A stretch of 64,000 nucleotides of DNA, taken from Candidatus Bathyarchaeota archaeon. Its GTDB lineage: Archaea; Thermoproteota; CALKCG01; B24. The notes beneath the pieces were generated by a model. It was not told the origin of the DNA. It saw only the letters and a program-made list of their open reading frames with translations, and did no database searches. Below, piece by piece: positions 7,258 through 37,709 of the stretch. The stretch is from positions 78,919 through 142,918 of the forward strand of contig JAGTQM010000003.1 of the NCBI GenBank assembly GCA_018396755.1. The letters run 5' to 3'. A program made the position numbers and the translations under genes. Numbering within the stretch: the stretch's first letter is position 1; every line of letters starts with the position of its first letter.

Positions 7258-8076
7258 TTAGAACCATCCCAGTGTGCCGTCTTTTCTAACTCTATCTAAA
7301 CTCCATCTAAAAGTCTTATAGCCAATTGGAAGTAGTAATACGCCAAAAATGGCTCCCTTTAGGAAATCTAGCTGAGTTGTTGGATCTAACATGTATGCGG
7401 CTTTAAGCATGGATAGCCTCCACAGATGGTAAACCCACGTTTGAGGCAGAAACCAAGATACTATGGAGATGCCTGGTATAAAGCTATCTAGAAATTGAAC
7501 TGGGAAAGATATACCAGCGAGAAGCTGCTGTAAAACGTTTATAGTCCATGTTATCGGGTCTGTAGACTTCGTAACCAGTCTGAAGCCCGTACTTATCATG
7601 GATAGTCCAAGTAGTATCATAGCGGATATCATGAATGATAAAAATGTTGAAAACCAGTCTATTCTAAGTTTTACTCCAAATAGCAGTATTCCAACCATTA
7701 TCTGAGGTATGAATGTCATGACTGAGAAAATATATGGCCAGGCTATTCGTCCTATGACGAATATAGGTATTGGTATACCCGTCATTATTATGCTTTCTAA
7801 ACTCCAAGGATTGAGATGCCTCTCCAATGCTTGAGATATGGGCATAACTAGGTTTCCTATAACCAACCCCACTACTAAGAAGGATATGTAGTCTGTATCG
7901 TACTCGGGGACAGGTCTATTTCTATATATAGCGTTAATAGACCAGCTTAAAATCCCGATGGCTATTGTTATAAGCTGAGTTGTCACCTGCATCTTATACG
8001 TTTTCCACCCTCTGAAGTCTCTCTCTGCAAAAGCCAAGATCTGCCTTATACTAGTAACTAGGTCGATCCTCTGCAT
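7258..8076 (-). CDS. ABC-2 type transporter permease
   Basis: Multi-spanning ~270 aa protein directly downstream of the ABC ATPase gene. Confidence 0.85.
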   Translation of the reverse strand: MQRIDLVTSIRQILAFAERDFRGWKTYKMQVTTQLITIAIGILSWSINAIYRNRPVPEYDTDYISFLVVGLVIGNLVMPISQALERHLNPWSLESIIMTGIPIPIFVIGRIAWPYIFSVMTFIPQIMVGILLFGVKLRIDWFSTFLSFMISAMILLGLSMISTGFRLVTKSTDPITWTINVLQQLLAGISFPVQFLDSFIPGISIVSWFLPQTWVYHLWRLSMLKAAYMLDPTTQLDFLKGAIFGVLLLPIGYKTFRWSLDRVRKDGTLGWF

Positions 8077-8080
8077 TTTC

Positions 8081-9127
8081 TCACCTCTTAACCAGTTTTA
8101 TGAAAATCTCCTCTAAACTAGGTTCATATGTTTCCATATCTCTCACATTTAGGCAATGTTTAGCTATAAGGTTCATCATATCTAAAATTTTAAAGTTTTC
8201 ATCGGTTTTAACTATTATCTTAGTCAGTGAGCCAAACTCTAGACTTACGTCTTTAACACCGTTTAAGCCTTCAAACTCATCTATGATTCTCTTCAGTTTT
8301 CCATCAGGCTCTCCATCTAAGATGAGACTGTAGTGTTTTTCAGGGCTTACGTATCTCCTTAAGTTTTCAGTTGTATCGCATGCTATGATTTCACCTTTAT
8401 TTATTATGGCTACTCTATCGCATATGGACTGTGCCTCCCACATATTATGGGTAGATATAAATATGGTCTTCCCCTCGGATTTAGCAAGTCTTCTCAATAG
8501 TTGTCTAAAATCCGTAGCCGCTGTCGGGTCTAAACCCGCTGTCGGTTCATCGAAGAGTAGTATGGGTATGTCGAGGAGAAGAGCCCGGCAGAGTTGTAGT
8601 TTACGAGCCATACCTGTGGATAGACGTTGATACATGTCATTAGATCTATCTTTTAACCCCATAAATTCTAAGAGTTCTTCAATACGCTTCTTAGCATAGC
8701 TTCTAGGTAGCCCGTAAAGAGTCGCGTAGAATTCCAGGTTGTCTTTAAGGTTTAGCCTCCACTCAAAACCCCTGTGCTGTTCACCTAGAACGGCTTGAAG
8801 GTTTCTTAGGACTTTACTAGACTGCTTTACGACGTTGTAGCCGTTTACGTAGGCTTCTCCGCCATCAGGTAAAACTAGGGTACATAGAATTTTTATAAGT
8901 GTAGTTTTCCCAGCTCCATTTGGTCCTAAGAGGCCGAAAACCTCACCACGGTAAACCTTAAGGTTGACTTTATTCAGGGCTTGGATAAATCCCTTTTTCC
9001 ATGTGAATATTTCTTTAAAACCTCCAACTCTACCCCAATACTCCCGATGCCTCCCACCACTAATGCCTCTAAGGCTAATAGGATATCGTTTGACAAGGTC
9101 TACGGTCTCTATGGTTACCTCAGTCAT
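8081..9127 (-). CDS. ABC transporter ATP-binding protein
   Basis: Walker A GLLGPNGAGKTTLIK; signature LSTGMARKLQLCRALL; Walker B ILLFDEPTAGLDP. Confidence 0.95.
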   Translation of the reverse strand: MTEVTIETVDLVKRYPISLRGISGGRHREYWGRVGGFKEIFTWKKGFIQALNKVNLKVYRGEVFGLLGPNGAGKTTLIKILCTLVLPDGGEAYVNGYNVVKQSSKVLRNLQAVLGEQHRGFEWRLNLKDNLEFYATLYGLPRSYAKKRIEELLEFMGLKDRSNDMYQRLSTGMARKLQLCRALLLDIPILLFDEPTAGLDPTAATDFRQLLRRLAKSEGKTIFISTHNMWEAQSICDRVAIINKGEIIACDTTENLRRYVSPEKHYSLILDGEPDGKLKRIIDEFEGLNGVKDVSLEFGSLTKIIVKTDENFKILDMMNLIAKHCLNVRDMETYEPSLEEIFIKLVKR

Positions 9128-9526: not shown

Positions 9527-9892
9527 ATGATAAAAATGACAACTGAATCCACTAAAGCCACTTTAACACCGGGTGTTAAAGTATACTATCAAGGCAAATG
9601 GGTTGATGTCTCTGAAGTTATAAGTGTAAAATACGCCAAAGTTAAACTGAGACAAGCTAGAGTTGAGCTGGCTCGTCGCATCATTAAGGAGCTCCTTAAA
9701 TCCCCGAGAAACTGCGTTAGAAGATCTGTACTGATCAATCTTAGCCGGGAAGTTGCCGGGGAAATGGGCCTTAAACGGCTTGGCTACAGATTTCTAATAA
9801 CCCAAGGTATAATCGGACGGCCAGCCGGATCTAAACTCTACTACCTTACAGAAAAGGCTAAAGAACTCTACCCAGACCTCTTCCAAAGTTAA
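9527..9892 (+). CDS. Small hypothetical protein, possible winged-helix DNA-binding
   Basis: Complete 121 aa ORF; basic, helix-rich central part, GxxxYYLTEKAKELYP C-terminus. Confidence 0.5.
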   Translation: MIKMTTESTKATLTPGVKVYYQGKWVDVSEVISVKYAKVKLRQARVELARRIIKELLKSPRNCVRRSVLINLSREVAGEMGLKRLGYRFLITQGIIGRPAGSKLYYLTEKAKELYPDLFQS

Positions 9893-10138: not shown

Positions 10139-10507
10139 TTAGAAAGCTGCACGTATTCGCTCGTAAAGTTCCTCTTTACCAGGGACACTTGTTACAAAGG
10201 CTATTTTACCATTTATAGCTATTATAGGTATTAGGCTCCGCATGACTTGAGGCCCGAGACCCATTTCAACAACCCTCTTCTTCCCGCTTGCCTCAAGTAT
10301 TTCAGCCAACCTCTTCTGTGTTTCCAAAAGCTTCTCTCCATATTCGGCTACACGTATTTCTACACGTTCGCCGAAATCCTTCTTAGTTTCTCGTAAGAGT
10401 GCAAAAAGCTTCTCATTTTCCTCTCTTCTACGTCCACAGCCGCAAAGCCCTGTTGGGAAAACCTCTAAAAGCACTTGGACCATATTTTCACCCTTTACGT
10501 GAACCAT
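10139..10507 (-). CDS. Thioredoxin-fold/ArsD-like small protein with CGCGRRREEN motif
   Basis: VLLEVFPTGLCGCG N-terminal strand-CxC; PIIAINGKIAF cis-Pro-like segment; overlaps ArsA-like gene. Confidence 0.55.
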   Translation of the reverse strand: MVHVKGENMVQVLLEVFPTGLCGCGRRREENEKLFALLRETKKDFGERVEIRVAEYGEKLLETQKRLAEILEASGKKRVVEMGLGPQVMRSLIPIIAINGKIAFVTSVPGKEELYERIRAAF

Positions 10508-11441
10508 ATATTAAGAGCGCTAGCTTTTTAACGTTTTCTAAGCTGACGACTTCTGTATCTAGAAGAGGGACTTCAACTATAGGTATATCACTAAACTCTT
10601 CTTTGACTAAGTTTATGTATTTCTCCTGTAAAAGTCTACGTCTAAAGAAGAAGCCGCTTTTACAGTATTCTTCGGGAAGCACAGAATTTATGAAAATGCC
10701 TTTAACTTTAATGCCGTATGGAATCAAACCCTCCTGAATTCTTTTAACCTCATAAACCGGTAACATTTCAGGGTGTGTAACTACGAAGTAGATCGTCTGA
10801 TCAGAAGCAAGCTTCTTTATAGCTGAATAGCTTTCATCTCTAAGTTTTTCAAGAAGCTTAAGCTCAGCTATTTTACCAGTTAAATCTACCACTTCTCTTT
10901 TTGCGGCTATAGCCATTTCAAGATTGTAGACGTAACGCCATGGGTAGTTCACCATTTCAAGATTATGGTATCCTGGCGCCGTATCAAACACGACAGCATC
11001 ATATTGATCATTGTTCATGTAATGTATGAAAACGTTATAAGATGCCGTTTCACAGGGGAGGACAGGGTTTTTCTCCCAATACTCTTTCAGAAACGTTACT
11101 TCAGACTCGCTAATTTTCTCCGACGAGAGGTCTTTAAGTGATTCTATACGTCTTAAAACCTCAAGCTGGTGTTTTCTTATACTCTCCTTAGGGTCAACAT
11201 TTACTACCCAAAGGTTTTCAACTTCAGATATCTGCGTCTCTTCACTACCTATATCTCGTTGGAAAATATCGTTCTGGCTCTTTTGAATATCAGTAGATGC
11301 AAGTAGGGTTTTAAATCCCTTCTCAGCCAACCAGAAGGCTGTAGCCGCCGCTAGACTACTTTTACCAACACCGCCCTTCCCGCCGAAGAATACGAACTTC
11401 CTATTCTCCCTTGGAAGAATATACTCCTCTAGCGTTTTCAT
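10488..11441 (-). CDS. ArsA/Get3-family ATPase, divergent
   Basis: Deviant Walker A GGKGGVGKSSLAAATAFWLAEKG; ASTDIQKSQNDIF; FDTAPGYHNLEMV. Confidence 0.85.
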   Translation of the reverse strand: MKTLEEYILPRENRKFVFFGGKGGVGKSSLAAATAFWLAEKGFKTLLASTDIQKSQNDIFQRDIGSEETQISEVENLWVVNVDPKESIRKHQLEVLRRIESLKDLSSEKISESEVTFLKEYWEKNPVLPCETASYNVFIHYMNNDQYDAVVFDTAPGYHNLEMVNYPWRYVYNLEMAIAAKREVVDLTGKIAELKLLEKLRDESYSAIKKLASDQTIYFVVTHPEMLPVYEVKRIQEGLIPYGIKVKGIFINSVLPEEYCKSGFFFRRRLLQEKYINLVKEEFSDIPIVEVPLLDTEVVSLENVKKLALLIYGSRKG

Positions 11442-34461: not shown

Positions 34462-35733
34462 ATGCGAGTTAAAATGTCTGGTTTTAGAAGTCTTTCAACG
34501 GTCGATGAAGCCTTGAAAAGGCTTTTAGAAGCTATTAAGGATCATAAGCTTAGCGTTGAGGAGGTGTCTCTGGAAAACTCCGTCGATAGGATATGTGGTG
34601 AAGATTTACTGGCTCCCGTAGATATTCCCCCTTTTAACAGGTCAGCTGTAGACGGCTATGCAGTCAGATACATAGACGTTTTGAGTGCGTCACCATCCAA
34701 CCCTATAGAACTTAAAATCGTAGGCGTCTCGGAAGCTGACTATGACCTAGGAACACTTCCAAAAGTTAATCCCGGAGAGGCTGTAGAGATTTACACGGGT
34801 GCCCCCATACCGTTTGGAGCAGACTCCGTGATCATGGCTGAATTCTGTAAAAGAGATGGAGATAAACTGTGGGTTTCAAAGCCAGTAGCATACATGCAGA
34901 ATATTTCAGTGAAAGGGGAGGACTTTAAAACCGGGGATCTTGTCGTAGCTAAAGGCGTTAAATTGAAACCGTGGCATGTAGGTGCTCTAGCTTCCCTAGG
35001 CATAGTAAGCGTAACAGTTTACCGTAAGCCCGTAGTCTTAATAGCATCAACTGGTTTAGAGCTTAAACAGCTGGGCTCTGAAGACCACTCGGGTAAAATA
35101 TACGACTCAACTAGGCCTATGCTTAAAGCGCTTTTGAAAAACATTAACTGTACGGTTTTAGACTTTGGAATACTTCCCGACGAGCCTACATACACTATGA
35201 AAACGATTTCTAAGCATTTAGAATCGGTCGATTTAGTGATAATTACTGGTGGGACAAGTCTAGGTTTGAGAGATGCGACGCCGGAGGCTTTAAACATGTT
35301 GGAAGGTTCAAAGTTGATCTTCCACGGGGTTCGTATGAGACCTGGTAAGCCTACTGGTGCATATCTTGTAAAAGATAGGATTATTTTCATGCTTTCAGGC
35401 TTCCCAGTTGCAGCCTTCATAGGGTTTAAAGTCTTCGTTGAACCAGCTATATATGCTTTAACAGGTTCTAAGCCAGACCCGCAACCTACTGTTAAAGCAT
35501 ATGTTACCAGGAGGTTGGCTAAGCCTACGGGTGTTAAAGCGTACATTAGAGTTAGAGTTTACCGTTCTCAAAACCGTTTTTACGCCGAACCTCTTAGATT
35601 GACGGGATCAGGGATACTTTCAACTCTGACCAGGGGTAACGGTATTCTCGTTTTAGAAGAGGAAGTGGAAGGTCTTGAAGAAGGGGAGGAGGTTGAAGTT
35701 CTACTCACACAGCCTTTTGAAGAGGTGGAGTAG
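34462..35733 (+). CDS. moeA: Molybdopterin molybdenumtransferase MoeA
   Basis: DIPPFNRSAVDGYAVR; YTGAPIPFGADSVIMAEF; MRPGKPTGAYLV. Confidence 0.95.
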   Translation: MRVKMSGFRSLSTVDEALKRLLEAIKDHKLSVEEVSLENSVDRICGEDLLAPVDIPPFNRSAVDGYAVRYIDVLSASPSNPIELKIVGVSEADYDLGTLPKVNPGEAVEIYTGAPIPFGADSVIMAEFCKRDGDKLWVSKPVAYMQNISVKGEDFKTGDLVVAKGVKLKPWHVGALASLGIVSVTVYRKPVVLIASTGLELKQLGSEDHSGKIYDSTRPMLKALLKNINCTVLDFGILPDEPTYTMKTISKHLESVDLVIITGGTSLGLRDATPEALNMLEGSKLIFHGVRMRPGKPTGAYLVKDRIIFMLSGFPVAAFIGFKVFVEPAIYALTGSKPDPQPTVKAYVTRRLAKPTGVKAYIRVRVYRSQNRFYAEPLRLTGSGILSTLTRGNGILVLEEEVEGLEEGEEVEVLLTQPFEEVE

Positions 35734-35735
35734 GA

Positions 35736-37709
35736 TTGGCGAAGGTTTTCCATAGGCTTATGAAGGTTGATGAAGCTGTAGAGCTCGTTAAAAGGCATCT
35801 AAAATCGCTCAGCCTCGAGTTAGAGTACGTAGCTTTAACGGAAGCTCTAGGTAGAATTCTCGCTGAGACTGTAGTTTCACCAATTGATTATCCTCCGTTC
35901 GACCGGGCAACTGTAGACGGCTATGCCGTTAACAGCACCAGTCTGCTGAATGCTGATGAGGAAAACCCTGTTAAACTTAGAGTTGTTGGAGAGGTTAAAG
36001 TTGGGGAGCTTCCAGGTTTGGAAGTTAAACCGGGTGAAGCTACGGAAATACATACCGGCGCCCCAATCCCAAAGGGAGCAGACTCAGTTGTAATGTCTGA
36101 GTATACTAAAAGGGTTGGAGACTACGTATTCATCTACAGGTCTACCTATCCTGGTGAAAATATCGCTCAAACCGGTGTAGATTTAATGGTTGGTGAAACT
36201 CTGCTTAGAAAAGGCGTGGTTTTAACGTCTAGGGAAATCAGCGTACTTGCTGCTATTGGGCTTGATAAGATTCCAGTTTACAGGAGAGTTAAAATCGCCG
36301 TAATCTCAACGGGATGCGAGGTTCAGCCGCCAGGCTCCCCTCTAAAACCAGGCAGGATCTACGATGTAAATAGCTCTACGATTTCCTGTATGCTTAGAGA
36401 ATTAGGCTGTCAACCGGACATATTAGGGATATACCCTGATGACTTTGACGTTTTACGTGAAGTCGTTGGAAAAGCCCTTGAAAACTACGACGTTGTAATA
36501 TCGTCTGGAAGTACTTCAGCTGGGTTTGGCGATGTAATCTATCGGGTTTTCAATAGTCTAGGTAAACCAGGCGTTCTAGTTCATGGGCTTTTAATGAGAC
36601 CTGGCAAGCCCACCGTTGCAGCCGTGATAAATGGTAAATTTGCATTGGGATTACCTGGTTTCCCAGTTTCAGCTATGATAGCTTTCCACATGTTTGCAAG
36701 ACCGATTATCGCGCATCTAATCGGTCTTCCGATTGAAAGTCCCCTCAAGATCAGAGCGTCTCTACCGTTTAGAGTTAAGACGGGTGGTGGAGTGAAAACA
36801 ATAATACCTGTGAGTTTAACTTCAAACCACTTTGGTTTTTTCTCAGCATATCCTATTGTTGAAGAATCTGGAGCCATATGGAGATTGGCTTTATCTGACG
36901 GCTTTATAGAATGTCCCGAGGAGAGGGACTTCCTCGATGAGGATGAAGAAGTATATGTGACGCTTTTCTCTAAATCTATCAAGCCAGCTGACCTAGTCTT
37001 CATTGGAAGCCACTGTCTAGGTTTAGATATCCTCTTCGAGTGTTTTAGAGAACCATTAACCATGAAAATGGTTAACATAGGTTCAATGGGAGGGCTTTTA
37101 GCCGTTAAAAGAGGTGAAGCCGATGTAGCAGGTATTCACCTTCTAGACCCTGAAACTATGCAGTATAATATCCCTTATATAAGAAAATACGGGTTAGAAG
37201 GTAGAGTTGTACTAGTTAGAGGATATGCTCGAACACAGGGCTTCATAGTGAAACCCGGTAATCCGAAGAAGATATGCGGGTTTAAAGACTTCTTCAGAGA
37301 AGATGTTACAATCATAAATAGAAATAAGGGCTCTGGAACAAGAGCTTTAATAGATGAAGGTTTACGGAAAGCCTCTGAAAGCCTCGGGTTGAAGTTTGAA
37401 GAGGCAGTTAAAAGAATCAGAGGTTACACATTTGAGGCTAAAACCCACTCTGCAGTAGCCTCTGCCGTAACACATGGTAAATGCGACGTAGGCGTAGGCA
37501 TTGAAGCAGCAGCCTACGCATGTGGATTGGAATTCATACCGATAGCTGAAGAATCCTATGATTTCTTAATCCTAAGCGATAGGCTTCAGAAGAAGCCTGT
37601 TCAACTCTTCATTGAAATCCTTGGATCTGACATGTTTAAAAGAGTACTTATGGAGAGGCTTAGAGGATATAGGTCTCTTAAAGAGACTGGTAGTGTGGTA
37701 TACCGCTGA
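35736..37709 (+). CDS. moeA: MoeA fused to C-terminal periplasmic-binding-protein-like domain
   Basis: DYPPFDRATVDGYAVN...MRPGKPTVAAV then FIGSHCLGLDILFECF...VTIINRNKGSGTRALIDEGL. Confidence 0.94.
   Translation: MAKVFHRLMKVDEAVELVKRHLKSLSLELEYVALTEALGRILAETVVSPIDYPPFDRATVDGYAVNSTSLLNADEENPVKLRVVGEVKVGELPGLEVKPGEATEIHTGAPIPKGADSVVMSEYTKRVGDYVFIYRSTYPGENIAQTGVDLMVGETLLRKGVVLTSREISVLAAIGLDKIPVYRRVKIAVISTGCEVQPPGSPLKPGRIYDVNSSTISCMLRELGCQPDILGIYPDDFDVLREVVGKALENYDVVISSGSTSAGFGDVIYRVFNSLGKPGVLVHGLLMRPGKPTVAAVINGKFALGLPGFPVSAMIAFHMFARPIIAHLIGLPIESPLKIRASLPFRVKTGGGVKTIIPVSLTSNHFGFFSAYPIVEESGAIWRLALSDGFIECPEERDFLDEDEEVYVTLFSKSIKPADLVFIGSHCLGLDILFECFREPLTMKMVNIGSMGGLLAVKRGEADVAGIHLLDPETMQYNIPYIRKYGLEGRVVLVRGYARTQGFIVKPGNPKKICGFKDFFREDVTIINRNKGSGTRALIDEGLRKASESLGLKFEEAVKRIRGYTFEAKTHSAVASAVTHGKCDVGVGIEAAAYACGLEFIPIAEESYDFLILSDRLQKKPVQLFIEILGSDMFKRVLMERLRGYRSLKETGSVVYR

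Follow-up and report, generated by a model that had tools for sequence, protein, structure and literature searches.

RESULTS

In a 64,000-nucleotide stretch of a Candidatus Bathyarchaeota contig (referred to here as the window), a gene for a single-domain ATPase that sequence comparisons placed in the ArsA clade was followed by a gene for a small cysteine-containing protein with a predicted thioredoxin fold. The association of these two genes is more than chance, and we lean, if only slightly, toward the idea that the pair represents a third, as yet undescribed type of ArsA/ArsD relay, in which a chaperone with a CGCG motif would load a thiophilic client (left unspecified here) onto a homodimer of the ATPase. 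In the text below, the genomes compared, the loci, and the contigs carry G, L, and C numbers, respectively.

The ATPase and its partner are encoded together

An initial annotation of this DNA had made conservation of the gene pair the critical test of its proposal, and the pair proved to be conserved. Both genes were present in all seven genomes in which either one was found, and in each case they were adjacent, in the same order and on the same strand, with the partner gene downstream of the ATPase gene. Among the nearest 41 genomes, the ATPase (60 to 100% identity) was found in five, and the partner was found in the same five. When 398 genomes of the phylum were searched with profiles, seven clear partners (at least 186 bits) were recovered, each adjoining an orthologous ATPase (at least 552 bits); the next ATPase relative in that search scored 214 bits. 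The pair was present in four of the seven genomes of the window's class and in three of the 12 genomes of a second class.

In G002, which belongs to the same genus as G003, a block containing the CobW, aquaporin, partner, and ATPase genes was absent and a broken CobW start was left. This deletion was seen when L168 9889-10339 was compared to L124 6095-9657 of G003; the flanks were intact and aligned at 71 to 90%. G062 also carried a decayed 61-residue fragment (G062:C10:10488-10670, L042) that duplicates part of the partner and is interrupted by a TGA.

The ATPase groups with ArsA

The ATPase gene and the sequence elements that were important for its assignment are as follows.

10488..11441, minus strand: single-domain ATPase, placed in the ArsA clade by tree, 317 aa, ATG start (PF02374, TIGR00345, tree, and AF2 model)
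11358..11384, minus strand: deviant P-loop GGKGGVGKS, residues 20-28
11265..11297, minus strand: switch I STDIQKSQNDI, residues 49-59
11028..11066, minus strand: PVLPCETASYNVF, residues 126-138, with Cys130 at the ArsA Cys113/Cys422 position by alignment
10953..10985, minus strand: switch II DTAPGYHNLEM, residues 153-163, with His159 at the ArsA His148 position by alignment
10662..10664, minus strand: Cys260, invariant in the CGCG-pair group, at the place of the Get3 zinc CxxC (second Cys absent)

The P-loop GGKGGVGKSS, the STDIQKSQ variant, and DTAPGYHNLEMV, all of which had been listed in the initial annotation, were present in the 317-aa protein. The ATPase matched PF02374 with 204 bits (cut-off 24.3, E=4e-60) and TIGR00345, the TRC40/GET3/ArsA superfamily, with 198.8 bits (cut-off 135, E=1e-58), and it reached no equivalog cut-off among the NCBIfam profiles. 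Specifically, its score against TIGR04291, the equivalog for ArsA with two halves, was 128 bits versus a cut-off of 650; the protein has one domain rather than two fused halves. It was the sole full-length ArsA/Get3-type protein in its own genome (89% complete), where three other matches were short P-loop matches.

The GGKGGVGK sequence was invariant in 22 of 22 aligned family members. Switch I diverged from the ArsA sequences compared: Asp51 was retained, and xQKSQ was found instead of PAHSL in all seven orthologues. The sequence LPCETASYNVF was invariant across the orthologous ATPases.

To place the ATPase, we inferred two maximum-likelihood trees, one with 37 rows and the other with 45; the two longest branches were left out of the second tree. 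The bona fide ArsA rows were both halves of the Citrobacter and Halorubrum proteins and the split Alicyclobacillus genes, all of which lie beside annotated arsenic genes. Three groups, namely, the bona fide ArsA halves, a group of single-domain "TPC" ATPases, and the CGCG-pair ATPases, were united with support of 100/98; this grouping was recovered in all bootstrap trees, and Get3/TRC40 fell outside it. The CGCG-pair and TPC groups were recovered as sisters with moderate support (84/57 to 84/76), and the TPC group is probably the sister group. Judged by these alignments and trees, the ATPase belongs to the ArsA clade and is outside the Get3/TRC40 lineage.

The residues of ArsA that bind metalloid are Cys113, Cys172, Cys422, His148, and His451, and ArsD is the As(III) chaperone (PMC2440759). 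Cys130 was invariant in all seven orthologues and aligned with the cysteine in TPC.EE of the sister group and in SPC.EE of ArsA. The site reads LPCETA in the CGCG-pair ATPase, TPC.EE in the sister group, and SPCTEE or GSCTTE in ArsA, versus PG, with a glycine, in Get3. The match between Cys130 and Cys113 required a two-residue gap, and HMMER's path placed Cys130 two residues off, so the exact geometry of Cys130 is a matter of inference. His159 in switch II aligned with His148. In the stretch that corresponds to ArsA Cys172, the alignment showed no cysteine.

The alignment also showed no CxxC zinc motif of the Get3 type in the pair ATPases, which have Cys260 only, and about 11 residues were absent where Get3 has the TRC40 insert. 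The hydrophobic TRC40 insert typifies Get3 and not ArsA, and some true Get3 proteins also lack CxxC (PMC10248533). The description of the ATPase as divergent and ArsA/Get3-like was therefore borne out with respect to the ArsA family but not with respect to Get3, because the trees placed it with ArsA and it had neither CxxC nor the TRC40 insert. The AF2 model (pLDDT 86.6) had archaeal TRC40/Get3 structures (3zq6 and 3ug6) as its top structural matches, and arsenite-bound ArsA (9nbo) was lower. Because TRC40 came first and ArsA further down, the fold alone did not decide between ArsA and Get3; the clade and the residues did.

The partner is a predicted thioredoxin-fold protein

Three features defined the partner gene and its junction with the ATPase gene.

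10139..10483, minus strand: CGCG partner with predicted thioredoxin fold, ArsD-like, probable Met9 start, 114 aa
10488..10493, minus strand: GGGTGA, Shine-Dalgarno sequence of the partner, includes the ATPase stop TGA, likely translational coupling (junction sequence; similar junctions in relatives)
10433..10444, minus strand: CGCG motif in the predicted beta1-alpha1 loop, residues 22-25 (Cys22 and Cys24 in 122-aa numbering)

As originally described, an open reading frame of 122 aa from Met1 (10139-10507, minus strand), with CGCG at residues 22-25, was present downstream of the ATPase gene. The overlap of about 20 nt that had been proposed for the two genes holds only if Met1 is the start. In the junction, CGTAAAGGGTGAAAATATGGTC on the coding strand, GGGTGA lies upstream of the second in-frame ATG (Met9, 10483), with four bases between them, and Met9 aligned with Met1 of the G003 orthologue. 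Most pair loci had similar junctions with the Shine-Dalgarno sequence over the stop, such as GGAGGTGA in G003; in G062, the Shine-Dalgarno sequence was just past the stop. Because of the position of the Shine-Dalgarno sequence over the ATPase stop, the alignment with Met1 in G003, and the similar junctions of relatives, the start is likely to be Met9 and the gap between the genes is likely to be 4 nt. Translation of the two genes is likely to be coupled through the shared Shine-Dalgarno sequence and stop.

FPxGxCGCG was invariant across the partner orthologues. The partner matched no Pfam family, was not over the cut-off of PF06953 (ArsD), and yielded no match in a plasmid search. Weak NCBIfam matches were to an MJ0307-type thioredoxin, to VcpD ("ArsD-related vicinal cysteine protein"), and to the HUIPC thioredoxin-like family. 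Membership in VcpD (NF047871) was rejected, with scores of 17.5 to 28.4 bits that were below the 90-bit cut-off. The AF2 model (pLDDT 79, pTM 0.73) had the order beta-alpha-beta-alpha-beta-beta-alpha; its CGCG motif fell in the loop from beta1 to alpha1, and beta3 was preceded by a conserved Ile-Pro. Foldseek matched the model to thioredoxins and to ArsD in the PDB (3ktb with a TM score of 0.53, 3mwh, and 3kgk), with weak E-values (best 6e-3) and with thioredoxins scoring equal to ArsD. The model and these matches agreed with the earlier label "thioredoxin/ArsD-like," and they supported a predicted thioredoxin-fold, ArsD-like partner with a cysteine cluster (CGC) at the beta1-alpha1 loop.

A cysteine at the metalloid site goes with an adjacent thiol protein

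We surveyed 117 distinct ATPase ORFs in the collected loci, with ArsA plasmid records left out. An ATPase was scored as having an adjacent partner when a same-strand gene no more than 60 nt away encoded a protein of 111 to 131 aa whose first 40 residues included CC or CxC. Single-domain ATPases with a cysteine at the site accounted for 12 of the 117, and all 12 had an adjacent CC or CxC protein; among the 105 ATPases without the cysteine, one had such a neighbor, and that one was of doubtful reality. The Fisher P value for the linkage was 2e-15; since the rows share ancestry, however, what it reflects is two clades together with canonical ArsD-ArsA. Members of the TPC group came from Methanomassiliicoccales, other archaea, and one Chloroflexota. 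The two sister-group partners that were scanned were Thioredoxin_3 proteins with a vicinal CC. In a single comparison, a profile of four sister-group partners matched the CGCG family with a probability of 91% (E=9e-7), and CC was opposite CGC.

According to a 2010 survey of ArsA homologues, single-domain members conserve none of the three metalloid cysteines (PMC2963123). What is new here, as read from the alignments, is that two groups of single-domain ATPases keep a cysteine at the Cys113/Cys422 site, all with an adjacent thiol partner.

A proposed relay of the ArsA/ArsD type

From the predicted folds, the clade, the conserved residues, and the linkage, we infer a relay with the following steps. 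The CGCG protein would be an ArsD-like metallochaperone whose two cysteines in the beta1-alpha1 loop bind a soft metal ion or a trivalent metalloid, and it would pass this client to the ATPase. The ATPase would act as two identical one-domain subunits; Cys130 and His159 from each of them would stand in for the Cys113/His148 and Cys422/His453 sites of two-domain ArsA, and the client site would lie at the interface of this homodimer. The histidine of the second half of ArsA is His453 in E. coli R773. Binding of nucleotide would close the client site, and hydrolysis would then hand the client on to a membrane exporter or another acceptor. In most carriers, this acceptor would be something other than Acr3 or ArsB; a co-encoded ABC-2 exporter may serve in several relatives, and the candidate acceptor was not constant between genomes.

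Arsenic genes lie away from the pair

No arsB, acr3, or arsR gene was recognized among the ORFs of the window when the ORF lists were read by eye, and none of the seven genomes had an ars gene beside the pair. The initial annotation was thus right that arsenic genes were missing nearby, but an ArsR-like gene (by eye) was found directly before acr3 on a different contig (C16) of the same genome. G001 also had acr3 on a contig other than that of the pair. In the remaining five of the seven pair genomes, acr3 was not found over the cut-off (none in G003, G004, G041, and G062; a fragment only in G020), with some of the genomes in this comparison being incomplete (77 to 93%). G012 had acr3 and lacked the pair. 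Canonical ArsD was not over the cut-off in any pair genome, and in the loci inspected no homologue with the same motifs adjoined an arsenite transporter.

These results bear on the idea that the client is As(III) or Sb(III) and that the pair is a divergent arsA/arsD that energizes an Acr3 encoded elsewhere or works with an aquaporin. The acr3 genes of the window's genome and G001 are consistent with this idea, as are the kinship of the ATPase clade to ArsA and the MIP channel that adjoins the pair in G003, because MIPs encoded in ars operons are assumed to transport As(III) (PMC4435449). We consider it unlikely, however, given the five genomes without acr3 over the cut-off, the G012 acr3 without a pair, the lack of an adjacent ars gene in any of the seven genomes, and the adjacency of the MIP in one genome only. 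Because acr3 was missing over the cut-off from five of the seven pair genomes, what the pairs have in common is not a role in Acr3-mediated arsenite export, and the phyletic pattern led us to reject Acr3 partnership as the general role. The earlier suggestion that the pair delivers metal instead of exporting arsenite is plausible on the same grounds, but arsenic-type metalloids are among the possible clients, since ArsA/ArsD are the closest characterized relatives of the pair and, in one genome, it has an aquaporin beside it.

Gene neighborhoods vary between genomes

In the window, the pair was flanked by an Elp3-like gene (by eye) and by a small gene without a family assignment, and none of the genes from the wider neighborhoods of relatives adjoined it. 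In G003, the order was a CobW/G3E GTPase with GCFCC, a MIP channel, the pair, and ThiS/MoaD; farther off were methyltransferases, a Peripla_BP_2 protein, HypA, and an Mrp-type ATPase, the last two on the contig of the pair. G004 had the pair, an ABC-2 ATPase and permease, MoaD, a methyltransferase, and a putative ECF transporter (from gene order and ABC subunits). In G020, a helix-turn-helix protein with cysteines (by eye) was followed by the pair, ABC-2, a divergent CobW, a putative ECF transporter, and a methyltransferase, and in G041 the pair was followed by ABC-2. The ABC-2 permeases of the relatives had GRPCVTE in common, with the cysteine invariant. In G062, CobW was next to a MIP fragment on a contig other than that of the pair, and the MIPs of G003 and G062 had an identical NPQ-V, versus the usual NPA-R of aquaporins. 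In bacterial ars operons, MIPs are known and ABC transporters are found rarely (PMC4435449).

The window's own genome had the same kit scattered over C58 (ABC-2, binding protein, FecCD, and methyltransferase) and C28 (CobW and ThiS). On C58, an apparent operon (L166 3076-8937) contained an ABC-2 exporter with GRPCVTE, Peripla_BP_2, a FecCD permease, an ABC ATPase, and a SAM methyltransferase, and its ABC-2 permease was the counterpart of the permease adjoining the pair in G004, G020, and G041. On C28, L164 365-12230 contained E1-like and JAB-type genes, a CobW GTPase, ThiS/MoaD, NadA, a cysteine desulfurase, and an IscU-like gene (several by eye), and this cluster is possibly a sulfur-carrier module.

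Several other neighbors were considered. An ABC-2 ATPase and permease at 7258-9127 of the window, downstream of the pair and on the same strand, were rejected as the exporter of the relatives, being of a different type and without convincing similarity. Between them and the pair was a gene for a 121-aa protein (9527-9892) that was conserved in G001, looked winged-helix-like by eye, and had no Pfam or NCBIfam match above noise. The multi-cysteine helix-turn-helix protein of G020 (L126 7852-8532) had no Pfam match; a similar protein of G062 (L167 2726-3391) was near CobW and MIP, and these proteins are candidate metal-responsive regulators. An ArsM-like role for the neighboring methyltransferase was rejected because it had generic methyltransferase scores only and no invariant cysteine. 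An ECF S-like protein encoded behind the G062 pair had no real similarity to that of G004. Elsewhere in the window (34462-37709), two tandem MoeA-like genes were recognized by eye, and the second of them has an additional C-terminal region.

A role in cofactor assembly would account for some of these neighbors. The pair would then deliver nickel, cobalt, another metal, or persulfide together with CobW, ThiS/MoaD, the methyltransferase, and uptake of the ECF or FecCD type. Genes of these kinds are grouped around the pair in G003, G004, and G020, HypA and the Mrp-type ATPase share its contig in G003, and the window's genome has the genes in scattered form, but no single gene was adjacent in all carriers, none was beside the window pair, and the methyltransferase had no conserved cysteine pattern, and we regard this role as improbable. 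The sulfur or redox-cofactor role in the initial annotation found no specific backing beyond the linkage to MoaD/ThiS and CobW genes.

It is very improbable that the pair targets tail-anchored membrane proteins in the manner of Get3/TRC40, with the partner acting as a redox co-chaperone: the ATPase has 3zq6 and 3ug6 as its best structural matches and is the only full-length protein of its type in the genome, but it is outside the Get3 clade, lacks CxxC and, in the alignment, about 11 residues at the place of the TRC40 insert, and is patchy in occurrence, with a deletion in G002, unlike a general targeting factor.

DISCUSSION

The ArsA/ArsD-type relay that we prefer has a more specific version, which we put forward tentatively and consider doubtful. 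The pair would be the core of a so far unrecognized archaeal metal(loid) trafficking module with the CobW GTPase, the aquaporin, and the cysteine-containing ABC-2 exporter, and its client would be something other than arsenite. If this is true, the thiol relay of ArsA/ArsD would be an older and general machine, and arsenic efflux would be one use of it. The sequence rule described above offers a simple way to tell archaeal ArsA-type ATPases that are likely to handle metals apart from targeting factors of the Get3 type. The pair also provides small soluble proteins with which to test how ArsD passes its client to ArsA and whether two-domain ArsA arose from a homodimer.

Get3/TRC40 proteins (3zq6 and 3ug6) have the ATPase fold and the deviant P-loop in common with the pair ATPase. 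They belong to another clade and have a zinc CxxC and the TRC40 insert, whereas the pair ATPase has neither. As for the partner, VcpD (NF047871) is a curated family near it (E 3e-3 to 3e-5); among the 398 genomes of the Thermoproteota phylum, the only matches of the VcpD profile were three CGCG partners, with the N-terminal 30 profile positions uncovered.

In a haloarchaeal arsenic operon (L181 3855-4402), arsA is followed by HcsL and HcsS ("halo-CC-star," ending CC), and HcsL overlaps arsA by 4 nt. HcsL/HcsS is another thiol partner of ArsA and is unrelated in sequence to the CGCG protein. The small ORFs after arsA, both these and those of Alicyclobacillus, were rejected as partner homologues because they had no sequence homology.

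The ArsA-ArsD systems (E. coli R773-type, haloarchaeal, and Alicyclobacillus) resemble the CGCG pair in that the ATPase is in the same clade, has a cysteine and a histidine at the metalloid-site positions, and has a thioredoxin-fold cysteine partner encoded beside it. ArsA consists of two fused halves (split in Alicyclobacillus), whereas the pair ATPase is a single domain, and ArsD has a vicinal CC plus a third cysteine, whereas the partner has CGC and is encoded downstream of the ATPase. Unlike the ArsA-ArsD operons, the pair has no adjacent ArsB, Acr3, or ArsR gene, and its ATPase has divergent switches I and II and no Cys172. ArsA/ArsD itself is known; the single domain, the downstream CGC partner, and the lack of adjacent ars genes are new.

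The TPC ATPases (Methanomassiliicoccales L046/L050, L044, L010, and Leptolinea L083) retain a DTAPTGHTLR-like switch II and ATDPTVSLS, in which the CGCG-pair ATPases differ, and their partners have CC rather than CGCG and share only 15 to 20% identity with the CGCG partner. They have the cysteine at the same place as the CGCG-pair ATPases, and, comparable to the CGCG pair, all five have an adjacent CC partner of 111 to 115 aa.
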